64,000 bases of DNA from Aeromicrobium tamlense (GTDB lineage: Bacteria > Actinomycetota > Actinomycetes > Propionibacteriales > Nocardioidaceae). Position 1 is the first letter of the stretch; each line of letters starts with the position of its first letter. The notes beneath the pieces were generated by a model, which searched no databases, was not told the origin of the DNA, and was given only the letters and a program-made list of their open reading frames with translations. The DNA lies in the NCBI RefSeq assembly GCF_013408555.1, contig NZ_JACBZN010000001.1, forward strand, positions 992,001-1,056,000, given 5' to 3'. Below, in pieces: positions 54,348 to 54,973 of this stretch. Both the position numbers and the translations under genes were made by a program.

Positions 54348-54548
54348 ATGTCGCACGGATCGTCGCCGGCCGCCTGGACCGCCGTCCTCGTCAGCCTCGC
54401 CGGCTTCCTCGTCGGCGGGATCGGCCTGATCCCCGAGCCGAACTGGGTCATCTTCACGATCGGCGTCGTGCTCGCGGTGGGCGCCCTGCCGCTCGGCAAG
54501 GTGATGTCGCTCGCCGGCTACGGCACCAGCCGGGTGAAGGAGCACTGA
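54348..54548 (+). CDS. HGxxPAAW-motif small membrane protein
   Basis: A 66-residue protein beginning with the signature SHGSSPAAWTAVLV, with two membrane segments (about residues 8-27 and 33-50) and the tail SLAGYGTSRVKEH. Small proteins with this N-terminal motif are found near tryptophan genes in actinobacteria; function unknown. It has its own -10 and TAGGAGCA ribosome-binding site. Its stop overlaps the proposed CTG start of the next gene. Confidence 0.88.
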   Translation: MSHGSSPAAWTAVLVSLAGFLVGGIGLIPEPNWVIFTIGVVLAVGALPLGKVMSLAGYGTSRVKEH

Positions 54549-54973
54549 CCAGCCCGGTCATCCCGACGACCGCCTCGCGCGGTCACCTGCTGCGCGGCCC
54601 GCTGATCGCGGGTGCCGCCGGCGCCGCCGCGCTCGCGCTGCTGCACGTGCGCGACCCCCACGTCCAGGGCTCCTACGGGTTCTGTCCGTTCCTGGTGCTC
54701 ACCGGGGAGCCGTGTCCCGGCTGCGGGGGCCTGCGCGCGGTCAACCTGCTGACCCGCGGCGACCTCGTCGCCGCCGTGTCGAGCAACCTGTTCGCCGTCA
54801 GCCTGGTGGCGATCGCCGTGGTGGCGTGGGCGGTGTGGCTCGTGCGCCGCGCGCGGGGGATCCCGGCGCGCTATCTCACCTGGTCGGCCCGCACCGTCAC
54901 CGTGCTGGGAGTCGCCGCTGCCGTCTTCGGTCTCGCCCGCCTCACCCCGTGGGGCGCCTGGCTCGCTCCCTGA
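54545..54973 (+). CDS. DUF2752 membrane protein, probably starting at CTG
   Basis: The domain core GEPCPGCGGLRAVNLLTRGDLVAA is diagnostic of DUF2752, a family of unknown function. The first ATG/GTG in frame (GTG 54647) would remove the first membrane segment (LLRGPLIAGAAGAAALALLHV), which the family has. The only plausible upstream start is CTG 54545, overlapping the previous stop as CTGA with AAGGAG 2 nt before it. That gives 142 residues and three membrane segments. Start is an inference; the core is certain. Confidence 0.82.
   Translation: MTSPVIPTTASRGHLLRGPLIAGAAGAAALALLHVRDPHVQGSYGFCPFLVLTGEPCPGCGGLRAVNLLTRGDLVAAVSSNLFAVSLVAIAVVAWAVWLVRRARGIPARYLTWSARTVTVLGVAAAVFGLARLTPWGAWLAP

Follow-up and report, generated by a model that had tools for sequence, protein, structure and literature searches.

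The DUF2752 gene in the window, by which we mean the whole 64,000-nt stretch of Aeromicrobium tamlense DNA analysed here, most probably begins with fMet at CTG 54545 through reinitiation coupled to the overlapping stop codon of the preceding gene, a rare start that recurs at this junction in relatives. CTG 54545 had been proposed as the start from the sequence-only reading, and comparison of relatives supported it by the position of the start, the restriction of the reading frame and the retention of CTGA in the window's clade. The gene order, the lack of other starts, the match of the start position to that of orthologues and the frame restriction in relatives were all observed directly.

Gene order and the stop-start overlap

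On the plus strand, the order of genes at the junction is Trp_oprn_chp (PF09534), HGxxPAAW/DUF6704 (PF20447), DUF2752 (PF10825) and an MFS transporter, within a genome of 3.37 Mb. The HGxxPAAW/DUF6704 gene (54348-54548, plus strand) encodes a small membrane protein of 66 amino acids, which scored just above the PF20447 cutoff (27.4 bits against 27), and it ends with a CAC (His) codon followed by the stop TGA. The DUF2752 gene occupies 54545-54973 on the same strand and would encode a membrane protein of 142 amino acids if started at the CTG. Residues 47-95 of this protein matched PF10825 with an E value of 1.1e-15 and 57.8 bits, against a curated Pfam cutoff of 27. We also noticed a second, diverged DUF2752-like match with 44% identity in the same genome (G000:C1:1811236-1811595).

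The overlap is located as had been claimed from the sequence: CTG lies at 54545-54547 and the upstream TGA at 54546-54548, sharing bases in a 4-nt CTGA (54545-54548, plus strand). From 54305 onwards no stop interrupts the DUF2752 frame, whose first canonical start is GTG 54647; this agrees with the earlier statement that no in-frame ATG, GTG or TTG precedes this codon.

Comparison within Aeromicrobium

A search for related loci with the single DUF2752 protein as query returned no matches. With an alignment as query, the closest relatives of the locus were mostly Aeromicrobium among the best 80 of 116 loci. We then assembled a genus set of one locus per genome, for the 44 genomes with a match of 49. 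A canonical start was taken as usable in this set when it kept the conserved ASRG segment and the helix that follows. CTGA was in frame without any usable canonical start in 8 of the 44 loci. The window's clade contributed seven of these species (64-100% identity), and the eighth locus is that of Aeromicrobium sp. Root495 (L028). It had been stated at the outset that relatives with an alternative start inside the gene would count against the CTG; in the seven clade members, no ATG, GTG or TTG yielded a protein with both the ASRG segment and the whole of helix 1, and the CTG start withstood this comparison.

The position of the CTG was compared with that of the starts of other congeners. The distance from CTG to the conserved RDPH motif is 35 codons (33 in L028). 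A similarly placed ATG or GTG, 33-37 codons ahead of RDPH and within 2 codons of the CTG position, exists in 26 of the 36 other congeners; some of the GTGs counted may reflect chance, given how often this codon occurs at 71% GC. The remaining 10 of the 36 carry candidate starts at other distances, 27 to 63 codons before RDPH. In A. phragmitis and A. camelliae (L005 and L034), the homologous N-termini M-SASPAPPATASRGRLLRGP and M-SATPAPAPTASRGRLLRGP start at an ATG one codon earlier, and both share the segment ASRGRLLRGP with the window's protein. Within the clade, codons 2-14 showed little purifying selection (pN 0.25, pS 0.28), and codons 10-13, which encode ASRG, were invariant as protein.

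Frame restriction across the family

The family search gave matches in 233 of 341 genomes, and loci were taken from part of these. Of 274 collected loci, 48 were duplicates, 33 had pairs that were not adjacent, 23 had no upstream gene that could be detected and 1 lacked the motif; setting these aside left 169 distinct adjacent upstream/DUF2752 pairs, and 168 after L256 was omitted. A pair was scored as having no canonical start when no ATG, GTG or TTG was found at least 45 codons before the CPGCG motif, searched from 60 nt upstream of the stop. By this definition a canonical start was present in 147 of the 168 pairs and a usable one was lacking in 21. The DUF2752 frame was the CTGA frame in 19 of these 21 pairs, as compared with 36 of the other 147 (Fisher 6e-9, relatedness ignored). 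Under the least favourable setting, in which overlapping starts more than 10 nt upstream were disallowed, the counts were 19/33 and 36/135 (p 9e-4).

Relatedness was corrected for only roughly, by hand-collapsed lineages and a quick tree on a sample that is part of the family. After collapsing by hand, the CTGA cases represented about 10 lineages, as against 2 lineages in another frame (binomial p 3e-5 against 24.5%), and a quick maximum-likelihood tree gave 11 changes, with gain and loss not told apart and two odd loci left out. The CTGA-only cases included Nocardioides flavescens (L129), Pseudokineococcus (L118 and L119) and a Nocardioidaceae MAG (L122). Their CTG codons lay 47-63 codons before CPGCG, overlapping the distances of canonical starts (median 58, 5-95% range 48-68). 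Three CTGA-only loci (L219, L220 and L244) have an ATG 40 codons before CPGCG, a possible substitute start. Two further DUF2752 loci (L206 and L265) are in another frame and have no canonical start in the expected place.

The sequence-only reading had asked whether relatives carry ATGA or GTGA at the same place. Among the 55 frame-0 pairs, recognised starts occupied the same overlap as GTGA in one locus (L288) and as TTGA in five (L215, L218, L223, L229 and L269); ATGA was found in none. The overlap codon is the sole usable canonical start in L229 (TTGA) and L288 (GTGA), and in each of the remaining four TTGA loci a canonical start also occurs later in the gene. Among the 19 CTGA-only loci, 13 have CC after the TGA, giving CTG-ACC, as do 30 of the 107 loci whose start lies further downstream (p 0.001 for the difference, uncorrected); the commonest canonical starts at the DUF2752 junction are ATG-ACC and GTG-ACC.

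The upstream last codon and local signals

The CTGA had been put forward as support for the CTG start. The overlap is real; its sequence is largely imposed by the last upstream codon, and CTGA alone is thus weak evidence, because TGA is directly preceded by the wobble position of that codon, which is CAC in 132 of the 168 pairs. In a 4-nt overlap, a last codon ending in C gives CTGA and one ending in T gives TTGA. The usual ending of the upstream protein, His (CAC) or another codon with a final C, therefore explains why the overlap yields CTG and not ATG.

The Shine-Dalgarno-like AAGGAG that had been noted just upstream is present at 54537-54542 (plus strand); it lies only 2 nt from the CTG, is absent from many other CTGA loci and is replaced by AAGGAT or AAGGGT in the closest relatives. 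The usual Shine-Dalgarno spacing is 5-9 nt. A Shine-Dalgarno-like match of at least 4 nt was commoner at CTGA-only loci (10/19) than at canonical ones (33/147). We rejected the Shine-Dalgarno sequence as the determinant, as 9 of the 19 CTGA-only loci had no such 4-mer and the window's own motif stands only 2 nt from its CTG.

A candidate small hairpin, GACCGC-CTCGC-GCGGTC (54568-54584, plus strand), is located downstream of the CTG. It is strong in most of the window's clade, and L028 has a different stem. In the 8 discovery loci the stem-loop in codons 7-16 seemed more stable than in synonymous recodings, with a mean z of -2.1 as compared with -0.1 in 35 others (p 0.0014, uncorrected). Out of sample, the enrichment was not replicated: the mean z was -0.91 in 5 further CTGA loci versus -0.70 in 49 other adjacent loci (p 0.33). 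The raw energies of the same loci were lower at CTGA (mean -17.3 vs -11.6). The hairpin was accordingly dropped as an aid to a weak start.

Other CTGA junctions in the genome

We scanned 744 kb of the genome (680 kb of stretches plus the window), which contained 318 close tandem gene junctions. In-frame CTGA occurred at 56 junctions, 52 of which had an ATG, GTG or TTG within 60 nt, as compared with 82 ATGA and 55 GTGA junctions, so that an in-frame CTGA by itself is not surprising. Only 5 of the 318 junctions had no ATG, GTG or TTG within 60 nt on either side. Three of these were ordinary gaps with a later ATG, and an open frame up to the CTGA was found only at the DUF2752 junction and at 446280; a junction of the DUF2752 type is rare within this genome.

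The junction at 446280 (G000:C1:446271-446310, outside the window; L297:6271-6310, compared in L309-L314) is a candidate site of -1 programmed frameshifting between two tandem Polyketide_cyc2 (PF10604) genes, which would thereby be joined. It reads G GGA AAA GCC TGA, with the slippery heptamer GGGAAAA, a 6-nt spacer and then a GC-rich inverted repeat, and roughly the first 20 codons of the downstream ORF contain no ATG, GTG or TTG. The same heptamer is present in 6 of 6 clade species, one of which has GTC in place of GCC.

Also outside the window, the rsmA/ksgA gene (PF00398; G000:C1:348866, L292:8866, compared in L339-L368) overlaps the stop of the preceding gene as CTGA. The preceding gene encodes a transglycosylase-domain protein (PF06737) and is presumably rpf. 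CTGA was present in 30 of 30 Aeromicrobium loci, 21-33 codons before the RPTK motif, and no canonical start was found 20-33 codons before RPTK in 22 of the 30, so that translation in these loci must begin either at the CTG or at a GTG some 30 nt farther upstream. This alternative GTG coincides, by eye, with an upstream Gln-Trp codon pair. Outside Aeromicrobium, 27 of 30 loci could be anchored, and the commonest candidate start lay at 25 codons (11 loci). Thus rsmA/ksgA, a ribosomal RNA methylase gene, may be a further case of a CTGA start.

Alternative explanations

Ribosomes could instead shift by -1 where the HGxxPAAW gene ends and so make an HGxxPAAW-DUF2752 fusion that needs no start codon, which would likewise restrict DUF2752 to the CTGA frame. 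Such a fusion would meet no stop in any of the seven clade members, whose DUF2752 frame is uninterrupted along the entire upstream gene, and a minor fusion product is described at an AUGA overlap in M. tuberculosis (PMC11260477). However, none of the 168 pairs has a strict X XXY YYZ heptamer, the only form scored, within 45 nt of the end of the upstream frame, whereas the 446280 junction keeps its heptamer in 6 of 6 clade species. The open stretch in L028 extends only 108 nt upstream and begins within the upstream gene, and 147 of the 168 pairs have their own ATG, GTG or TTG at the same junction. We consider such a frameshift unlikely.

Initiation inside the gene, at GTG 54647 or at a CTG at codon 15 or 16, would give a shorter protein. 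GTG 54647 (54647-54649, plus strand) is the first canonical start of the window's gene, and L004 (A. flavum, NZ_BJZQ01000001.1) has TTG at codons 15 and 16 and L032 has GTG at codon 16. The sequence-only reading had held that a start at GTG 54647 would delete the first membrane segment, and this was confirmed by an AlphaFold2 model built from a 20-row alignment of genus sequences (mean pLDDT 76.0): predicted helix 1 spans residues 12-33 (54578-54643, plus strand), and the GTG is residue 35. Its use would also cost P19, which is invariant across the 20 aligned orthologues. In L002 and L031 the first canonical start comes only at residue 66, beyond the CPGCG motif, which together with helix 1 contradicts GTG 54647 as the start. 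Starts at codons 15 or 16, as in L004 and L032, would keep most of the helix but lose ASRG, which lies upstream of them and is common to ATG-started orthologues; moreover, L033 carries CTC at codon 15 and L003 carries GTC at codon 16. Internal initiation is thus very unlikely. A decayed gene or a sequence error at the junction is extremely improbable, given that eight Aeromicrobium genomes and further genera share the junction and that, within the clade, purifying selection acts on the gene from codon 36 onwards (mean pN 0.15, pS 0.42).

Discussion

If DUF2752 starts at CTG 54545, the ribosome that ends the HGxxPAAW protein at TGA 54546 would step back one base and reinitiate on the overlapping CTG, by termination-reinitiation as at ATGA and GTGA junctions. 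The CTG would presumably be decoded by the initiator tRNA, initiation would depend on translation of the upstream gene, and the output of DUF2752 protein would probably be low. Several observations speak against the CTG start, namely the open upstream frame in the seven clade members, the later start in four of the five TTGA loci, the poor spacing of AAGGAG and the 9 CTGA-only loci with no Shine-Dalgarno-like 4-mer, the little purifying selection on codons 2-14, the other frame of L206 and L265, the ATG of L219, L220 and L244, and the rarity of CTG starts in the mycobacterial and start-codon evolution studies cited below.

A CUG start is allowed by NCBI table 11. The DUF2752 start resembles the rare bacterial CUG starts in that the codon would be read by the initiator tRNA, and differs from them in the stop-start overlap, which recurs at one gene junction in several lineages. 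Initiation complexes of E. coli are reported to form on CUG (PMC11497404), and in a study of start-codon evolution in 36 genome triplets, 2 of 61,358 AUG starts were reported to have become CUG (PMC5622118). The ATGA overlaps described by Huber et al. 2019 (PMC6728339) share with this junction a 4-nt stop/start overlap at which the terminating ribosome is thought to restart, but the shared start here is CTG. In the parts cited here, studies of gene overlaps name ATGA or GTGA (PMC10666635) or (A/G/T)TGA (PMC3887535), and not CTGA. A literature search on DUF2752 itself found no paper.

Mycobacteria belong to the same class as Aeromicrobium. The uORF-ppe2 overlap of M. tuberculosis (PMC11260477) is likewise an actinobacterial stop-start overlap, reported to act mainly by termination-reinitiation; it differs in its AUG start, and CUG is called a non-start codon in the description of a control construct. 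The figures cited from a mycobacterial selection give CTG as not enriched as a leadered start (0.03%; PMC4633059), yet CTG is seemingly kept across the window's clade and is found elsewhere.

The CTG start itself is of a known kind, and its recurrence at one junction is the part that a specialist might find surprising. Our confidence is evenly divided on the broader proposal that CTGA is a real, recurrent class of stop-start coupling in high-GC Actinomycetes, in which CAC-type endings force the CTG and selection repeatedly accepts it, perhaps owing to tolerance of a poor start codon by a ribosome that is terminating. If this is true, genes of this kind would be truncated or misplaced by gene finders limited to ATG, GTG and TTG starts, and a class of overlaps would escape surveys restricted to (A,G,T)TGA. 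With these junctions one could then also ask, in a natural setting, whether start-codon discrimination is relaxed in a terminating ribosome.
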